Position numbers and translations under genes: made by a program. Below are positions 22,895 to 30,672 of a stretch of 35,220 nucleotides of DNA, in pieces. Below the pieces are notes generated by a model. The model ran no database searches and was not told the DNA's origin. It saw only the letters and a program-made list of their open reading frames with translations. The stretch is from Cellulomonas rhizosphaerae (GTDB lineage: Bacteria; Actinomycetota; Actinomycetes; Actinomycetales; Cellulomonadaceae), in the NCBI RefSeq assembly GCF_003470205.1, contig NZ_QWKP01000196.1, positions 1 through 35,220 on the forward strand, written 5' to 3'. Position 1 is the first letter of the stretch; every line of letters starts with the position of its first letter.

Positions 22895-23293
22895 TCAGTG
22901 CGCGTGCTGCCCGCGGGAGTACTCGAACACCCAGCCGACCAGGGCGATGATGCCCAGCACGACGCCGATGCCCGAGAGCCAGAAGCCGACCGCGAAGCCG
23001 AGGAACGTGACGGCCCCGGCGACACCGATGGCCAGCGGCCACCAGCTCCACGGCGAGTACACGCCCTGGTCGCCGGCGCCCTGCTCGATCTCGCCGTGCT
23101 CGTCGTCCTCGGGACGCGGGTCGATGCGACGCGACAGGAGCGCGAAGTACGCGCCGATCATGCCGACCATGCCGCCCACGAGCGGGATGCCGAGCATGCC
23201 GACGGCCTCGCCGTCGCTCCACACGCCGTAGATCAGGCCGACGGGGATGAAGAACAGCACCCCGTAGAGGAAGAGCTTCGTCTCGAGCTTCAC
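22895..23293 (-). CDS. ctaF: Cytochrome c oxidase subunit IV, actinobacterial type
   Basis: A 132-residue membrane protein with four hydrophobic segments (about 8-25, 31-52, 83-103 and 104-122) separated by an acidic loop ([13 protein letters not shown]). The start [15 protein letters not shown] and the WSWWPL turn are typical of actinobacterial subunit IV (M. tuberculosis Rv2199c). It has no redox centre and stabilises the oxidase. Its GTG start at 23293 overlaps the ctaD stop as GTGA. It is the last gene of ctaC-ctaD-ctaF. Confidence 0.92.
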
Positions 23294-25110
23294 TTGTCGC
23301 CCTCCTCGTCACGCGAGGACGCGGGGCGCTCCTCGATGATGACCGTCGAGGACTGCTCCTGCTCGCCCGAGCCATCCGCGACGCGCTCCTGCGCGAGCTC
23401 GGTCTCGCCGCGGCGGTCCGCCTCCCAGTCCAGCGGGCCCTTGGTGGGTTCCGGCTCGACGAAGTCCATCGCGGCGACCTCGGGGTGGTGCAGGTCGAAC
23501 GCGGGGCGCTCCGAGCGGATGCGGGGCAGCGACGTGAAGTTGTGCCGCGGCGGCGGGCAGCTCGTGGCCCACTCGAGCGAGGCGCCGTAGCCCCACGGGT
23601 CGTCGACCTTCACGAGCGGGGCGTTGCGCCACGTCGTGTAGACGTTCCAGAGGAACGGCAGGGTCGAGGCCGCGAGGATGAAGGCGCCGATCGTCGAGAG
23701 CTGGTTCATCCACGTGAAGCCCTCGTCCGGCGAGTAGTCCGCGTAGCGACGCGGGAACCCGATGACGCCCAGCCAGTGCTGGATGAGGAACGTGGTGTGG
23801 AAGCCGATGAACAGCAGCCAGAAGTGCCACTTGCCGAGCCGCTCGTCGAGCATGCGGCCGGTCATCTTGGGCCACCAGAAGTAGAAGCCCGCGAACATCG
23901 CGAACACGACCGTGCCGAACACGACGTAGTGGAAGTGCGCGACGACGAAGTAGGAGTCGGACAGCTGGAAGTCGAGCGCAGGGCTGGACAGGATGATGCC
24001 CGTCAGGCCACCGAAGAGGAACGTGATCAGGAAGCCGATCGTCCACAGCATCGGGGTCTCGAACGTGAGCTTGCCCCGCCACATCGTGCCGATCCAGTTG
24101 AAGAACTTCACACCGGTCGGTACCGCGATGAGCATCGTCATGAACGCGAAGAACGGCAGCAGCACCGAGCCCGTGACGTACATGTGGTGGGCCCACACCG
24201 TGACGGACAGGGCCGCGATCGCGATCGTCGCGTAGACCAGGCCCTTGTAGCCGAAGATCGGCTTGCGGCTGAAGACCGGCAGGATCTCGGTGATGATGCC
24301 GAAGAACGGCAGCGCGATGATGTAGACCTCGGGGTGCCCGAAGAACCAGAACAGGTGCTGCCAGAGGATGGCGCCCCCGTTCTCGGGGTTGAAGACCTGC
24401 GCTCCGAGGCGGCGGTCGGCACCCAGCGCGAACAGCGCGGCGGCCAGCGGCGGGAACGCCATGAGCACCAGCAGCGACGTCACCAGGATGTTCCAGGTGA
24501 AGATCGGCATGCGGAACATCGTCATTCCGGGCGCACGCATGGTGACCACGGTGGTGATGAAGTTGACGGCACCGAGGATCGTGCCGAAGCCGGCGAGCGC
24601 GAGGCCGAAGACCCACAGGTCACCGCCGAGCCCGGGCGAGTACACGGTGTTCGACAGCGGCGCGTAGGCGAACCAGCCGAACGAGGCGGCGCCCTGCGGC
24701 GTGAGGAAGCCCGCGGCGGCGATCAGGCCTCCGAAGAAGAACAGCCAGTAGGCGAACATGTTGAGCCGCGGGAACGCCACGTCGGGCGCGCCGATCTGCA
24801 GCGGCATGATCACGTTGGCGAAGCCTGCGAACAGGGGCGTCGCGAACAGCAGCAGCATGATCGTGCCGTGCATCGTGAACGCCTGGTTGTACTGCTCCTT
24901 GGACTGGAACACGTCCATGCCCGGCGTGAAGAGCTCGGCGCGGATCAGCAGCGCCAGGATGCCGCCCACCGCGAACCACACGAAGGACGTGATCAGGTAC
25001 ATGTACCCGATCGTCTTGTGGTCGGTGGAGGTGATCCACTTGATGACGGTGCGGCCCAGCGTCTGGCGCGACGGCGCCAGCCCCGGGATCGTCTCAACGG
25101 CGTACGCCAT
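23290..25110 (-). CDS. ctaD: Cytochrome c oxidase subunit I (aa3 type)
   Basis: A 606-residue catalytic subunit with 12 membrane helices, reducing O2 to water and pumping protons. The low-spin haem a ligands are His81 (TMHGTIM) and His394. The haem a3 ligand is His392 ([10 protein letters not shown]). CuB is bound by His259 (GHPEVY, cross-linked to Tyr263) and His308/His309 (WAHHMY). Proton-channel residues are visible: Asp110 in [13 protein letters not shown] and Glu261 for the D path, Lys335 in TGVKFFNW for the K path. The C-terminal 90 residues are polar and acidic. The ATG at 25110 shares one base with the ctaC stop (TGATG). Confidence 0.96.
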
Positions 25111-25991
25111 CAGTCGTTGCCTTCCTGCGTGGCGCTCTCGAGGTCCTGCAGGCGGCTGTACTCGAGCCCGAGGGAACCCTCCTGACCCTTGGCCTTGAGC
25201 TCCGCGATGTGCTTGTCGTAGTCCTCACGGGACACGACGTTGACGTTGAACAGCATCGACGAGTGGTACTCGCCGCAGAGCTCGGCGCACTTGCCCTCGT
25301 AGTTGCCGATGACCTTGGGCGTCAGCTGGAACGAGTTCGTCTTGCCCGGGATCATGTCCATCTTGTACAGGAACGCCGGGACCCAGAAGGAGTGGATGAC
25401 GTCGCGCGACTCGAGCGTGAAACGGGTGCTCTCGTTGACGGGGAGCCACAGCGTGACCTGGTCCTTGAGCACGCCGGTGCCGGCAGCACCGACGTCCTGC
25501 GCGTGCTGGCCGGTCTCGTAGGCGTCGTCGTCGAGGTAGTTGAAGTCCCAGCTCCACTGCTTGCCGATGACCTCGACGTGGTTCTTGGTCGGCGTCGAGG
25601 TGTCCTGGATCGCCGTGACGTCGCGGTTCGTGTAGTAGAAGAGCACGCCGACCATGACGATCGGGAGCACGACGTACATGAACTCGAGCGGGACGTGGTA
25701 CCGCAGCTGCACGGGCAGGACGTTGTCGTCCTTGCGCTTGCGGTAGACGGCGACGCACCAGAGCATCAGGCCCCACGTGATGAGGCCGACGATGAGCGCA
25801 GCGATCCACGAGCCGACCCAGAGGTTGACGATGCGACCCGTCTGGTCCGTGATCTCGTTGTCGGAGTTGCCGGGCAGCCAGCCGCGCTGCACCTCGGCGG
25901 AACATCCGCTGAGGGCGACCGCGACGACGGCTGCGAGGCCGGCCATTCTCAGGGCCGTGCGCCGCTTCCGGCGGGGGGTGTCCGGGTGCAC
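25110..25991 (-). CDS. ctaC: Cytochrome c oxidase subunit II, lipoprotein
   Basis: A 293-residue electron-entry subunit. A signal sequence with lipobox ALSGC (Cys30) predicts a lipid anchor. Two membrane helices lie at about 57-80 and 103-120. The CuA domain has His200 ([10 protein letters not shown]), Cys235, Glu237 and Cys239 (CAELCGEYH), His243 and Met246. QWSWDFNY is the aromatic patch that takes electrons, here from QcrC. The GTG at 25991 is chosen because AGAGG stands 6 bases upstream and it gives a normal signal peptide; a longer reading adds an implausible Arg-rich stretch. The stop overlaps ctaD by one base. A CRP-like site and a -10 lie upstream. Confidence 0.95.
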
Positions 25992-26073
25992 TGGGGACCT
26001 CTCACTCGCGTCCCGTTGGCGCGCCACCCAAGGCAGGCAGCCGTCACCCGGGACCTTCGTCCTCGACCCGTGC

Positions 26074-26079
26074 AGCCTA
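26074..26079 (-). promoter_or_regulatory. Candidate -10 TAGGCT of the ctaCDF operon
   Basis: On the minus strand TAGGCT lies 82 bases before the ctaC GTG, giving a leader of about 75 bases with its own ribosome site. No good -35 is seen, which would fit an activator-dependent promoter. Confidence 0.4.
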
Positions 26080-26128
26080 GCGCGCCGACCAGCCGGTTTC
26101 GCCCCGGGGACACGACTTCGCGACACCG

Positions 26129-26144
26129 TGTCAGCACCGTCACA
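26129..26144. promoter_or_regulatory. CRP/GlxR-like operator upstream of ctaC
   Basis: TGTCA-N6-TCACA matches the CRP-family pattern TGTGA-N6-TCACA at 9 of 10 defined bases. It is centred about 70 bases upstream of the start expected from the -10 at 26074-26079, a position usual for class I activation. Binding is inferred. Confidence 0.4.
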
Positions 26145-26211
26145 CCGGCCCGCCGCAGCTCGGCGAGCGAGCGGGACGGGCACTCGCGCGTGCTCATGCG
26201 GCCCCGCGGGC

Positions 26212-26223: not shown

Positions 26224-27426
26224 GTGAGCTCTCCTGCCGACGACGCCACCGCGCGCACCGATGTGACGGACGCCACTGCGCCGCGCAGCGCCCCGAGGCG
26301 CGTGATCCTCGACGCCGGGGGCCGTGCGCCCCTGCTGACCGAGGCGCGCGCCGCGTTCGTCGAGGCGCTCGACCAGGGCTGGGCGGACCCGCGGCGCCTG
26401 TTCTCCGAGGGGCGCCGCGCCCGGATGCTGCTCGACGGCGCCCGTGAGGCGATCGCGGGCGTCGTCGGCGCGCGGACCGAGGAGATCGATCTCGCGCCGT
26501 CGCACGTGGCCGCGCTGCACACTGCGGTCCGGTCGGTGGCGCGCGGCCGGCGGCGGGTCGGGTCGGGCGTGGTCGTCGGCGCTGTCGAGCGCGCCGCAGT
26601 GCTCAACGCCGCGGCGTTCGTCGCGGGCGACGCGCGCCTCGTCGTCCCGGTCGACGCGACCGGCAGGGTCGACGCGGCAACGTTCGCCGCGGCCGTCGCC
26701 GCACCCGGGGTCGCGCTCGCCGCGCTGCAGCACGCCAACGGTGAGGTCGGCACGCTCCAGCCGGTCGACGAGGTCCACGTCGCCGCCCGCGCGGCCGGGG
26801 TCCCGCTGCTCGTCGACGCCGGCGCGAGCCTCGGACACGTGGCCGTCCCGCCGAGCTGGGACCTGCTGGCCGCGGACGCGGGCGACTGGGGCGGACCGGG
26901 CGGCATCGGCGTCCTGGCCACCCGGCGGGGCGTGCGCCGCTCCCCCGACGGCCCCGAGGACGACGACCGCTGGTTCCCCGGCGGCGTGAGCGTGCCTGCG
27001 GCCCTCGCGGCAGCCGTCGCGCTCCAGGTCGCCGAGCAGCGGCGGGTGGCGGAGGCGCAGCGGCTGCACGCGCTCGTCGACCGTGTCCGCGCCCGCGTCG
27101 CGGCCGAGGTGCCGGACGTCGACGTCGTCGGCGACCCCGACCGCCGGCTCCCCCACGTCGTGACGTTCTCCTGCCTGTACGTCGACGGCGAGGCGCTCGT
27201 CACCGCGCTCGACGCCGAGGGCTTCGCGGTCGGCTCCGGATCCGCCTGCACGTCGAGCGCGCTCGAGCCCAGCCACGTGCTCGCGGCGATGGGCGTCCTC
27301 ACGCACGGCAACGTGCGGCTCGCGCTGCCGGCAGGCACCACCGAGCGCGACGTCGACGCGTTCTGCGACGCGCTGCCCCGCCTTGTCGCGCGCGTGCGCT
27401 CGGCCCTGGGCGTGGAGGGGCTGTGA
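26224..27426 (+). CDS. Cysteine desulfurase-like protein lacking the PLP lysine
   Basis: A 400-residue NifS/IscS homologue of near-normal length. The sulfur-carrying loop GSGSACTSSALEPSHVL (Cys342) and Arg365 are intact. Aligned by eye to E. coli IscS, SGHKIYGPKGIG corresponds to DAGDWGGPGGIG, so the PLP lysine is Asp221. The stacking His is Arg123 (VERAAV), the Gln near PLP O3' is Ala201 and the GATES phosphate loop is gone; Asp198 remains. It probably cannot bind PLP in the normal way and may be a sulfur carrier, a scaffold or a changed enzyme. There is no frameshift or internal stop, so it looks maintained. It starts with a leaderless GTG and overlaps the TusA-like gene as GTGA. Confidence 0.85.
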   Translation: MSSPADDATARTDVTDATAPRSAPRRVILDAGGRAPLLTEARAAFVEALDQGWADPRRLFSEGRRARMLLDGAREAIAGVVGARTEEIDLAPSHVAALHTAVRSVARGRRRVGSGVVVGAVERAAVLNAAAFVAGDARLVVPVDATGRVDAATFAAAVAAPGVALAALQHANGEVGTLQPVDEVHVAARAAGVPLLVDAGASLGHVAVPPSWDLLAADAGDWGGPGGIGVLATRRGVRRSPDGPEDDDRWFPGGVSVPAALAAAVALQVAEQRRVAEAQRLHALVDRVRARVAAEVPDVDVVGDPDRRLPHVVTFSCLYVDGEALVTALDAEGFAVGSGSACTSSALEPSHVLAAMGVLTHGNVRLALPAGTTERDVDAFCDALPRLVARVRSALGVEGL

Positions 27427-27641
27427 CCGTCGTCGACGCGCGTGGCCTGCGCTGCCCGGCACCCGTCATCCGGATCGCGCGCGCCGCCCGCGACGCTGCA
27501 TCGGGGACGCACATCACCGTCCTGGCGACCGACCCGGCGGCCGTGCACGACGTGCCCGCGTGGGCGCGGATGCGCGGCCACGCGATGGTGTCCAGCACCG
27601 AGGCGGACGGCGAGTACGCGCTCACCGTGGAGATCGGCTGA
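27423..27641 (+). CDS. TusA-family sulfur carrier protein
   Basis: A 72-residue SirA/TusA-fold protein. DARGLRCPAPVIR carries the conserved CPxP motif, whose cysteine holds persulfide sulfur in the family. The GTG start lies inside the stop of the NifS-like gene (GTGA), so the two are translated together. TusA takes sulfur from IscS in E. coli and passes it to tRNA thiolation or molybdenum-cofactor enzymes. Here the partner is the desulfurase-like protein with the altered active site, so the sulfur source is uncertain. A perfect palindromic terminator begins 3 bases after the stop. Confidence 0.88.
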   Translation: MTVVDARGLRCPAPVIRIARAARDAASGTHITVLATDPAAVHDVPAWARMRGHAMVSSTEADGEYALTVEIG

Positions 27642-27690: not shown

Positions 27691-28041
27691 TCAGCTGAAC
27701 GAGCCGCCGCACGCGCAGGCGCTGCCGGCGTTCGGGTTGTCGATCGTGAAGCCCTGCTTCTCGATCGTGTCCGCGAAGTCGATCGTGGCGCCGTCGAGGT
27801 ACGGGACGCTCATGCGGTCGACGATGACCTCGACGCCGTCGTAGTCCTTCGTGACGTCACCGTCGAGGTAGCGCTCGTCGAAGTAGAGCTGGTAGATCAG
27901 GCCCGAGCAGCCACCGGGCTGCACGGCGACGCGGAGACGAAGGTCGTCGCGACCCTCCTGCTCGAGGAGGCTGCGCACCTTGTCCGCGGCGAAGTCGGTG
28001 AGGAGGACGCCGTGCGTCGCAGTCTCGGTGGTCTCGCTCAT
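27691..28041 (-). CDS. erpA: A-type iron-sulfur carrier (ErpA/HesB family)
   Basis: A 116-residue protein that receives and delivers Fe-S clusters. The three conserved cysteines are Cys45 (PGGCSGLIY), Cys109 and Cys111 (SACACGGSF). The length is normal. The ATG at 28041 has AGGAGAG upstream. It corresponds to M. tuberculosis Rv2204c. Likely clients nearby are the Rieske protein and NadA, both Fe-S proteins, though this is inference from location. It converges on the NifS-like/TusA pair and shares their terminator. The 177 bases upstream contain its promoter, which I cannot fix. Confidence 0.93.
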   Translation of the reverse strand: MSETTETATHGVLLTDFAADKVRSLLEQEGRDDLRLRVAVQPGGCSGLIYQLYFDERYLDGDVTKDYDGVEVIVDRMSVPYLDGATIDFADTIEKQGFTIDNPNAGSACACGGSFS

Positions 28042-28218: not shown

Positions 28219-29376
28219 TCAGCGCGACCAGGTCCGCGCCACCCGCTCGGCGCGCCGCTCGAGCGACCCTCCCGCGTCGGCCAGCGCGACCGCGACCTCG
28301 TCGGGCCCCTCGGCGACCGCGTACGCGGCCGTGACGCCCGCCGCCGACAGCTCACGCCGCCCGACGAGCACCTCGCCGGCCAGGACGACGGCGGGCACCG
28401 CGTGCGCGAGTGCCCGCGCGGCGACGCCGGTGGTGACCTTGCCGTGCAGCGACTGCCAGTCGAACCGCCCCTCGCCGGTCACCACGACGTCCGCGACCGC
28501 GAGCCGCTCGTCGAGCCCGACAGCGTCGGCCACGAGGGCCGCGCCCGGGACCAGGCGCGCGCCGAGCAGCGCGAGCCCGAACCCGAGGCCGCCCGCCGCA
28601 CCCGCGCCCGGCGCGGTGAGCAACCGCCGCCCGGCGCCGCTCGGTCCGGCCAGCAGGTCGGGACGGAGAGCGTCGCCCAGCGCGTCGATCGCCGCGTGCG
28701 CGAACGTCGCGAGCGCACCCTCGAGGTCCTGCGCCTGCTGGGGCGTCGCGCCCTTCTGCGGGGCGAAGCCCGCGGAGGCGCCCTGCAGCCCGAGCAGGGG
28801 GACGTCGACGTCCGTCGCGACGACGAGCTCGACTCCCGCCAGCCGCTCGCGCAGCTCCCGCAGCCCGACGAGGTCCGCCGCCGCCACGTCGGCGAGCGCG
28901 CCACCGCCCGCCGCGAGGGCCGGCGCGTCCAGGCCCAGGCCGACGAGCGCGCCCGCACCGGCGTCGTTGGTCGACGACCCCCCGAGCCCCACGACGACCC
29001 GACGGGCGCCCGTGCCGATCGCCGCGCCGATGAGCTCGCCCGCCCCGCGCGTCGACGTCAGCGTGGGATCGCGGCGGTCGGCGGGCACGAGACCGAGGCC
29101 CAGCGCGTGCGCGGTCTCGACGTAGGTCGTGTCGCCGACGACCAGGATCGCCGCAGGCACCGCTGTGCCGAGCGGCCCGGCCACGGTCGCGGCGACCAGG
29201 GAGCCGCCGAGGCTCGCGTGCAGGGTCTCCACGAAGCCGGGGCCGCCGTCGGACAGCGGGCACGCGGTCACCTCGTCGTGCGGCGCGGCCCGGCGCCAGC
29301 CCGAGGCGATGCGGGCCGCGGCCTCGCGGGCGGTCAGGGCGGTGCCGAAGGAGTCCGGGGCGATGAGCACGTGCAC
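28219..29376 (-). CDS. Glycerate kinase (GlxK family)
   Basis: A 385-residue kinase phosphorylating D-glycerate, in this family usually to 2-phosphoglycerate. Characteristic stretches are the N-terminal IAPDSFGTALTAREAA, CPLSDGGPGFVE, GLGGSSTNDAGAG, ATDVDVPLLG and VTGEGRFDWQSLHGK. It links glycerate to lower glycolysis. It corresponds to M. tuberculosis Rv2205c. The GTG at 29376 is chosen as the first of two nearby GTGs; CACGAT ends 6 bases upstream and could be the -10 of a leaderless mRNA. It diverges from nadA. No glyoxylate or serine genes lie near. Confidence 0.9.
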   Translation of the reverse strand: MHVLIAPDSFGTALTAREAAARIASGWRRAAPHDEVTACPLSDGGPGFVETLHASLGGSLVAATVAGPLGTAVPAAILVVGDTTYVETAHALGLGLVPADRRDPTLTSTRGAGELIGAAIGTGARRVVVGLGGSSTNDAGAGALVGLGLDAPALAAGGGALADVAAADLVGLRELRERLAGVELVVATDVDVPLLGLQGASAGFAPQKGATPQQAQDLEGALATFAHAAIDALGDALRPDLLAGPSGAGRRLLTAPGAGAAGGLGFGLALLGARLVPGAALVADAVGLDERLAVADVVVTGEGRFDWQSLHGKVTTGVAARALAHAVPAVVLAGEVLVGRRELSAAGVTAAYAVAEGPDEVAVALADAGGSLERRAERVARTWSR

Positions 29377-29460
29377 GCGGGCATCGTGACATGCGCCACG
29401 TCTCGCCCCGCGACCGACGGGCCCCGTGGCGCGCCGGTCGCCGTGTGGGAAGATCGCGCC

Positions 29461-30672
29461 GTGAGCACCGCGACCTCCGCTCCCTCCCCCGCCGGCTTCG
29501 CCGAGCCCGCCCCGTCGGCCCTGCTGCTGCTGGGCCGAGGAGTCGACCTGGCCTCCGAGCGCGGGGTCGAGTGCGTCGGCGACCTGCCGTCGCCGAGCGA
29601 CCCCGACCTCGTCGAGCGCGCCCGCGTGGCGCGAGCCGCCCTGGGTGACCGGGCGTTCATCCTCGGTCACCACTACCAGCGCGACGAGGTCATCGACTTC
29701 GCCGACGTCACGGGCGACTCCTTCAAGCTTGCGCGCGAGGCCGCTGCCCGGCCCGACGCCGAGTTCGTGATCTTCTGCGGCGTCCACTTCATGGCGGAGT
29801 CCGCAGACATCCTCACGTCCGACACGCAGCAGGTGATCCTCCCGGACCTCGCGGCGGGGTGCTCGATGGCCGACATGGCCGCGATCGACCAGGTCGAGGA
29901 CGCGTGGGACGTGCTCGTCGACGCCGGCGTCGCGGAGTCCACGGTCCCGGTCACCTACATGAACTCGACCGCCGCGATCAAGGCGTTCACCGGTCGCCAC
30001 GGCGGCACGATCTGCACCTCGTCGAACGCGCACGTCGCGCTGCGGTGGGCGTTCGACCAGGTCGGCGGCGTCGACGGCACCGGCAAGGTCCTGTTCATGC
30101 CGGACCAGCACCTGGGCCGCAACACCGCGGTGCTCGAGCTCGGCCTCTCGCTCGACGACTGCGTGGTGTTCGACCCGCGCAAGCCGAACGGCGGCCTGAC
30201 GACCGAGGAGCTCAAGGCCGCGCGGATGATCCTGTGGCGCGGGCACTGCTCGGTGCACGGCCGCTTCTCCGAGCGCAACGTCACCGACATCCGCGCCGCG
30301 GCGCCGGGCGTCACCGTGCTCGTGCACCCCGAGTGCAAGCACGAGGTGGTCAACGCGGCCGACATGGTCGGCTCGACGGAGTACATCATCAGGGCCCTGG
30401 ACGCCGCCCCCGCGGGCTCGGTCTGGGCGATCGGCACCGAGCTCAACCTCGTGCGCCGGCTCGCGGCCGCGCACCCGGACAAGCAGGTGCACTACCTCGA
30501 CTCGACGGTCTGCTTCTGCTCGACGATGAACCGCATCGACCTGCCGCACCTCGTGTGGGCGATGGAGTCGCTCGTCGCGGGCCGTACGGTCAACCAGATC
30601 GTCGTGGACGCCGACGACGCGCACTGGGCCCGCGTCGCGCTTGACCAGATGCTCGCCCTGCCGGGCTACTGA
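29461..30672 (+). CDS. nadA: Quinolinate synthase
   Basis: A 403-residue [4Fe-4S] enzyme that makes quinolinate from iminoaspartate and dihydroxyacetone phosphate for NAD synthesis. Cluster ligands are Cys134 (AAGCSMADMA), Cys292 (HPECKHEV) and Cys351 or Cys353 (DSTVCFCSTMNRIDL). GHHYQRDEVIDFAD and YMNSTAAIKAF line the substrate site. The N-terminal 50 residues extend beyond shorter family members. GTG at 29461 follows GAAGAT by 6 bases; a longer reading upstream would be Arg-rich and unlikely. The usual partners nadB and nadC are absent. The next gene begins 5 bases after the stop, so an operon with the DJ-1 and ABM genes is likely. Confidence 0.94.
   Translation: MSTATSAPSPAGFAEPAPSALLLLGRGVDLASERGVECVGDLPSPSDPDLVERARVARAALGDRAFILGHHYQRDEVIDFADVTGDSFKLAREAAARPDAEFVIFCGVHFMAESADILTSDTQQVILPDLAAGCSMADMAAIDQVEDAWDVLVDAGVAESTVPVTYMNSTAAIKAFTGRHGGTICTSSNAHVALRWAFDQVGGVDGTGKVLFMPDQHLGRNTAVLELGLSLDDCVVFDPRKPNGGLTTEELKAARMILWRGHCSVHGRFSERNVTDIRAAAPGVTVLVHPECKHEVVNAADMVGSTEYIIRALDAAPAGSVWAIGTELNLVRRLAAAHPDKQVHYLDSTVCFCSTMNRIDLPHLVWAMESLVAGRTVNQIVVDADDAHWARVALDQMLALPGY

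Follow-up and report, generated by a model that had tools for sequence, protein, structure and literature searches.

A NifS/IscS-fold protein of Cellulomonas rhizosphaerae, 400 amino acids long, has lost the PLP lysine together with most of its other PLP contacts and has kept the persulfide-loop cysteine (Cys342) along with Arg365, Asp198 and Asn172. It belongs to a bacterial family, tied to TusA and to NAD synthesis, that seems to have lost its PLP lysine on seven or eight occasions, with the cysteine kept in 195/195 aligned rows. The textbook view is that cysteine desulfurases depend on PLP, and the family offers a natural experiment on the purpose of the rest of the fold, be it a relay, a scaffold or a partner, as well as a bacterial parallel, coupled to TusA, to the archaeal IscS described below. 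The reading that we favor, and hold with somewhat less than even confidence, is that the protein acts without PLP as a persulfide relay or as a platform for assembly, often together with TusA and probably for the cluster of the quinolinate synthase NadA. Besides the pattern of lost and kept residues, this reading draws on the usual pairing with TusA, the synteny of the locus, the selection acting on the gene and its co-occurrence with NadA.

The window, by which we mean the whole stretch of DNA that was analyzed, is an entire contig of 35,220 bases from a genome of 3.66 Mb. The NifS-like gene (26224..27426, + strand) begins with GTG and ends with TGA, and its stop overlaps the start of tusA in the sequence GTGA (27423..27426, + strand); the coordinates, the reading frame and the overlap agree with those given in a first-pass annotation of the same DNA. 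The tusA gene (27423..27641, + strand; Pfam TusA) encodes a sulfur carrier of 72 amino acids with a CPAP motif. Beyond it lie a gene for an ErpA-like A-type Fe-S carrier (27691..28041, - strand; NCBIfam ErpA 118.8 bits, cut-off 117), a glycerate kinase gene (28219..29391, - strand; Pfam Gly_kinase) and the gene of the proposed client, the NadA quinolinate synthase (29461..30672, + strand; Pfam NadA, 312 bits). On the other side are the divergent neighbor ctaC (COX2; 25110..26183, - strand), which is kept at this place across the class, and ctaD (COX1; 23290..25110, - strand). An A-type carrier had already been named as the convergent neighbor, which proved right, and NadA is now added as a further recurring companion.

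The 400 amino acid protein matched Pfam Aminotran_5 at 99.6 bits (cut-off 21.5). Among the NCBIfam models NifS ranked first at 208.9 bits, under its cut-off of 530.75, while IscS scored 125.8 bits, under its cut-off of 643.2; since the NifS score lies under the cut-off, the curated NifS name is not earned. An AlphaFold2 model built on 78 aligned sequences had a pLDDT of 94.7 and a pTM of 0.91, and the best PDB matches of this model in a Foldseek search were IscS and Nfs1, with Archaeoglobus fulgidus IscS at ranks 16 and 18-21. The first 20 residues aside, the lowest pLDDT (73) was found in the block 341-350 around Cys342, as expected of a mobile loop. The protein therefore has the class V aminotransferase fold, the homology and the persulfide-loop cysteine of the NifS/IscS proteins, but lacks the PLP lysine, the stacking His, the O3' Gln, the phosphate-binding residues and a score above the NCBIfam NifS or IscS cut-off. 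Since the PLP lysine is absent, we would not file the protein as a cysteine desulfurase; it may in part act as the sulfur-handing end of one does. Homology-based labels of cysteine desulfurase in such genomes may be wrong.

The cofactor site was aligned with that of E. coli IscS (sequence from NC_000913.3). Asp221 (codon 26884..26886, + strand) occupies the position of the PLP lysine (K206), Arg123 (26590..26592, + strand) that of the cofactor-stacking His (H104) and Ala201 (26824..26826, + strand) that of the Gln near O3' (Q183), so that all three E. coli residues are replaced. The phosphate side is altered as well, with S73-G-A-T76 changed to P92-S-H-V95, S203 to D218, H205 to G220 and T243 to G254. 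Cys342 (27247..27249, + strand) aligns with the persulfide-loop cysteine C328 and Arg365 (27316..27318, + strand) with R354, and Asp198 (D180) and Asn172 (N154) are also kept. The alignment thus bears out the central claims of the first-pass annotation, namely the loss of the PLP lysine along with the His, the Gln and the phosphate loop, and the retention of the cysteine loop. The composition of the protein, 0 Lys and 40 Arg, goes further than had been claimed: with no lysine in the entire chain an internal aldimine with PLP is impossible, and a lysine elsewhere in the PLP pocket is ruled out.

It is conceivable that pocket chemistry persists and that Asp198, Asn172 and Arg365, which are near invariant despite the loss of the lysine, hold PLP non-covalently or bind some other ligand. 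PLP is present in structure 4EB5 of A. fulgidus IscS-IscU according to a figure legend in PMC9769115, so that loss of the lysine by itself need not abolish binding. However, A. fulgidus IscS keeps the phosphate loop SGATE and the stacking His, whereas here the phosphate-side residues, the His and the Gln have all changed, and no lysine is available for an aldimine. We consider this explanation distinctly unlikely.

The cofactor-site changes are shared by close relatives. An orthologue, recognized by score (376 bits or more), was present in 52/60 genomes of the genus, its own included, and in 103/121 genomes of the window's GTDB family (104 matched; G100, whose sole match of 208 bits was taken as ordinary NifS, was excluded). 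In the 30 genus loci returned and aligned, own included, D221, R123 and C342 were each found in 30/30. We also compared the best 80 of 145 named relatives found, from Cellulomonas, Isoptericola, Oerskovia, Promicromonospora, Sanguibacter, Actinotalea and others, a set that shares some organisms with the genus set. D221 was present in 78/80 of these (Gly and Ala stand there in the other two), and R123 and C342 were each present in 80/80. Asp221 and Arg123, whose conservation the first-pass annotation had proposed to check, are therefore typical of these relatives. Every orthologue of the order that was read lacked the PLP lysine (30/30 genus, 80/80 named and 23/23 other loci), and no order orthologue was found that keeps it. 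A single decaying copy is ruled out by this conservation together with the purifying selection described below (dN/dS 0.14-0.31). Two similar loci, L112 (67% identical) and L163 (73%), come from metagenome bins titled Proteobacteria and Solirubrobacterales, and are probably mis-binned contigs.

In many Actinomycetes members of the family are flanked by ctaC and erpA. A class-level search matched 197/394 genomes at E<=1e-66, the weakest of which may include a few with some other NifS, and a phylum-level search matched 52/246 genomes at 1e-64; the phylum matches beyond the class scored 299 bits or less and mostly resembled ordinary NifS. We picked 85 family loci (L168-L252) for breadth, a non-random sample lying outside the genus and named sets, and found the PLP lysine kept in 42/85 and absent in 43/85. 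Fifteen more loci (L253-L267) were left out as more distant or ordinary NifS; L253-L255 keep the lysine and have TusA directly behind, and counting them gives Lys in 45/88. All 23 loci from the window's order and family were without Lys, having S (8), D (7), E (4), A (2), G (1) or T (1) in its place. Beyond the order the lysine was missing from f40 (1/1), f41 (1/1), f44 (1/1), f45 (1/3), f50 (2/2), f51 (11/11), f54 (2/4) and f57 (1/1), and the remaining 17 families sampled there had Lys throughout. The loss of the lysine, first described for the window protein, holds for every orthologue read from the order; beyond the order, orthologues often keep Lys. Lys-bearing actinobacterial NifS-TusA orthologues (e.g. 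L193, L194, L221 and L223) share the neighborhood and 41-59% identity with the window protein, and have TusA adjacent or fused, but differ in having Lys at 221, His at 123 and mostly Gln at 201; from these residues they are presumably active.

The distribution of the lysine was then read on two trees. In a quick tree of 108 rows the 31 order rows grouped together (SH-aLRT 92), and nine changes of lysine state were counted, of which two (A. fulgidus IscS and L261) lay outside the family, leaving seven within it. A more careful tree was built from 62 rows after deletion of the trait columns and, with a bootstrap that had not converged, gave eight changes; support for its order clade (18 rows) was 98/90, and in f45 and f41 the Lys-less row was nested in well supported Lys-bearing groups. 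Forcing 31 Lys-less rows into one clade cost 103.7 log units (AU p=0.0018), by which a single origin of all Lys-less members is rejected, with the proviso that the forced group was itself chosen by the trait and that the tree has some long branches. Since the outgroup rows have Lys except for A. fulgidus IscS and L261, the changes were read as losses; the ancestor seems to have borne the PLP lysine and its descendants to have lost it repeatedly. With the lysine lost in several separate events and the cysteine kept, the protein probably has a job that does without the usual PLP chemistry. The His at 123 is retained in several Lys-less rows (f5, f15, f18 and four of the six f17 rows), so that the erosion of the cofactor site was stepwise. 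L261 (G857:C4:27718-34857), a NifS outside the family, carries Leu (SSDLLYGP) where the PLP lysine would align, which indicates that the lysine has been lost in other NifS branches also.

A solved Lys-to-Asp precedent, which the first-pass annotation did not name, is A. fulgidus IscS (PDB 4EB5, 4EB7 and 4HVK, with 4R5F as the D199K mutant); no PDB sequence matches the 400 amino acid protein better. The two share the NifS/IscS fold, the Lys to Asp and Gln to Ala changes, the loop Cys and the pyridine-side Asp; they differ in that the archaeal protein keeps SGATE and the stacking His and has Leu at the Arg365 position. According to PMC7585200, the Lys-to-Asp change leaves A. fulgidus IscS without desulfurase activity, and one of its cysteines serves as a ligand of the [2Fe-2S] cluster in IscU. 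The same source describes Methanosarcina acetivorans IscS1, an archaeal protein that we compare by description only, as also lacking the catalytic lysine, set beside IscU1 and insoluble when expressed (PMC7585200). A search of titles and abstract openings, which covered few subscription papers, found no work on actinobacterial NifS-TusA or on a Lys-less bacterial desulfurase.

Next after the relay or platform reading we rank a structural partner of the A. fulgidus type, the loop Cys of which would ligate a cluster built on SufU or ErpA and would carry no sulfur. The Lys-to-Asp and Gln-to-Ala changes match those of an inactive, cluster-ligating protein (PMC7585200), the gene of ErpA is adjacent, and such a role would account for retention of the protein where TusA is absent. 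However, in the quick tree, built on residues 19-376 only, A. fulgidus IscS fell among ordinary NifS rows, so that its Lys-to-Asp change appears convergent in a different lineage, and shared ancestry of the Asp state is unsupported. In addition, Arg365 is kept here and is Leu in A. fulgidus IscS; the locus has no IscU gene, the sole NifU_N match in the genome adjoining a SufS-like gene (L001) on another contig; and the frequent pairing with TusA is left unexplained. A role as scaffold ligand is for these reasons rather unlikely in our view, though it deserves to be weighed.

Selection and residue retention were examined across the family. Cys342 and Arg365 were present in 195/195 rows, and Asp198 and Asn172 in 193/195, of a set whose genus and named rows are partly redundant. 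Of 82 positions conserved at 93% or more in 40 Lys-bearing members, 38 hold at 90% or more in 41 Lys-less members and 44 relax, in a comparison that omits L179, L234, L249 and L250. Pairwise dN/dS (NG86) was 0.14-0.31 in 12 distinct Lys-less pairs (13 were run, two of them the same organism pair, and dS was saturated in one pair), and in Lys-bearing pairs it was 0.20 and 0.21 for two family pairs and 0.32 for one pair of more distant relatives. Purifying selection acts on the gene in which the cofactor-site pattern persists, so the pattern goes beyond chance. One genome, G319, has two copies, of which L178 keeps the Cys loop with no TusA nearby, and L179 has a degenerate loop (CGCTC) and a TusA without its cysteine (GNPT). 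The relaxation of 44/82 positions and the state of L179 are what a relic, merely in slow decay at a stable locus, might look like, but the low dN/dS, the invariance of Cys342 and Arg365 and the survival of the gene across many families of the order make a relic very improbable.

The window TusA matched the Pfam model at 76.5 bits (cut-off 28.6) and has the CPxP cysteine, and it scored 50.3 bits with the NCBIfam equivalog, under the cut-off of 78. Its single Cys is Cys11, and it is the sole TusA match in the genome. In E. coli the desulfurase cysteine feeds TusA, and the window pair has the same two folds as E. coli IscS-TusA (PDB 3LVJ). In PMC5372745, IscS is described as handing its persulfide sulfur to TusA. 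TusA was near or fused at 24/30 genus, 68/80 named, 29/43 other Lys-less and 39/42 Lys-bearing loci, and its Cys motif was present in 24/24, 68/68, 28/29 and 37/39 of these. It was not found nearby at 6/30 genus loci, 12/80 named loci and 14/43 Lys-less loci outside the genus; loci without TusA numbered 28/170 by profile search, against 81/170 by a narrow CPxP pattern. When 20 genomes, mostly picked because they had no TusA nearby, were searched, 15/20 had a TusA match, and G042, G087, G103, G118 and G386 had none. Since TusA is missing nearby at many Lys-less loci, and wholly from some genomes, transfer to TusA is not the whole role. TusA is the usual, not an obligatory, partner: the pairing that had been described for the window is usually kept, but TusA as an invariant partner is weakened by its absence near those 14/43 loci. 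Fused NifS-TusA forms, which the first-pass annotation believed to be labelled as active desulfurases in related genomes, do exist, three with Lys (L194, L221 and L223) and three without (L170, L244 and L252); its doubt about such a label applies to the Lys-less ones but not to those with Lys.

In a sample of 347 genomes from the order the orthologue was present in 88 (91 matched; G100, G200 and G357, at 206-212 bits, were taken as ordinary NifS and excluded). NadA was found in 88/88 genomes with the orthologue versus 145/259 without it, and by genus in 27/27 versus 43/77; the genomes are related and the co-occurrence is phylogenetically clustered, so that p-values overstate it. In the window's family, 18 of the 26 genomes without the orthologue have NadA, twelve at 323-364 bits, one split (G108) and five at 310-314 bits, and the same search gave 296-317 bits for NadA in orthologue-bearing genomes. 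G035, G038, G060, G100 and G120, which have no orthologue and a NadA in the score range of the bearers, are assemblies of 110 or more contigs. In G118 the orthologue was present and NadA was not detected by the family-level search, and in G087 nadA lies ~38 kb from the orthologue. The NadA score as a marker of two kinds of NadA works within the window's family but fails across the order, f9 genomes with the orthologue also having NadA at ~324-334 bits. In four genomes of the same genus without the orthologue (G004, G012, G046 and G048) NadA scores higher (356-364 bits), a pattern that would fit replacement of the entire NadA/NifS locus.

The nadA gene was within 4 kb of the orthologue in 66/80 named loci and within the flank at 12/43 Lys-less and 9/42 Lys-bearing loci of the wider set, where the flanks were shorter. 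Among order genomes that lack the orthologue we selected 12 NadA loci. Seven of these (L268-L273 and L277) had a NifS 2.4-2.8 kb beyond nadA, with a GHK or AHK lysine motif in six of the seven and the motif in L271 missed by the search pattern; at the other five there was no NifS nearby, and NadA was 30-35% identical to that of the window. This suggests a dedicated NifS at many NadA loci. The B. subtilis NifS is placed under NAD biosynthesis in PMC6522883, and plant SufE3 is described as a SufE-NadA fusion whose activity requires the SufE part (PMC5890173). Within the bases available, ctaC was present at 30/30 genus, 78/80 named, 41/43 Lys-less and 36/42 Lys-bearing loci, and erpA at 30, 76, 31 and 24 of these. 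The order ctaC-NifS-erpA, common to Lys-bearing and Lys-less loci, may be inert.

The window genome encodes three further class V proteins, all with SGHK, which by eye are SufS-like (L001 and L002) and IscS-like (L003). IscS-like enzymes are dimers, and with Lys-bearing relatives in the same cell the protein could be a pseudo-subunit that forms mixed dimers with such a desulfurase or regulates it. Within the genus, however, the IscS-like paralogues are only distantly related, with 38-40% identity in the congeners listed, and we think such a role about as improbable as persisting pocket chemistry, or slightly more so.

Under the preferred relay or platform reading, the protein would descend from an actinobacterial NifS already paired with TusA and would now bind no PLP. 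It would have given up the removal of sulfur from cysteine and retained the IscS fold with its mobile Cys342 loop. Sulfane sulfur would most likely be accepted either from a true desulfurase, namely the SufS-like or the IscS-like protein, each of which bears Lys, or else from some small persulfide, held as a persulfide on Cys342, and passed to Cys11 of TusA or directly to a nascent cluster. The [4Fe-4S] enzyme NadA would be the likely client, with ErpA as carrier. A preserved sulfur-transfer role without normal desulfurase chemistry had been suggested in the first-pass annotation; the lost lysine and the kept cysteine loop agree with it, and the relay itself we infer. A bolder version, which we regard as improbable, is that a widespread actinobacterial lineage repeatedly dropped PLP chemistry to become a cofactor-free acceptor of sulfane sulfur, the former substrate pocket (Arg365, Asn172) holding a small persulfide, for instance that of cysteine, from which the outer sulfur would move to Cys342, then to TusA and into assembly of the NadA cluster.

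The lack of lysine extends beyond the cofactor position. The core was without any lysine in 117/152 Lys-less members (three rows left out), and in 19/40 Lys-bearing members the PLP lysine is the sole lysine of the core, an extreme bias of Arg over Lys.
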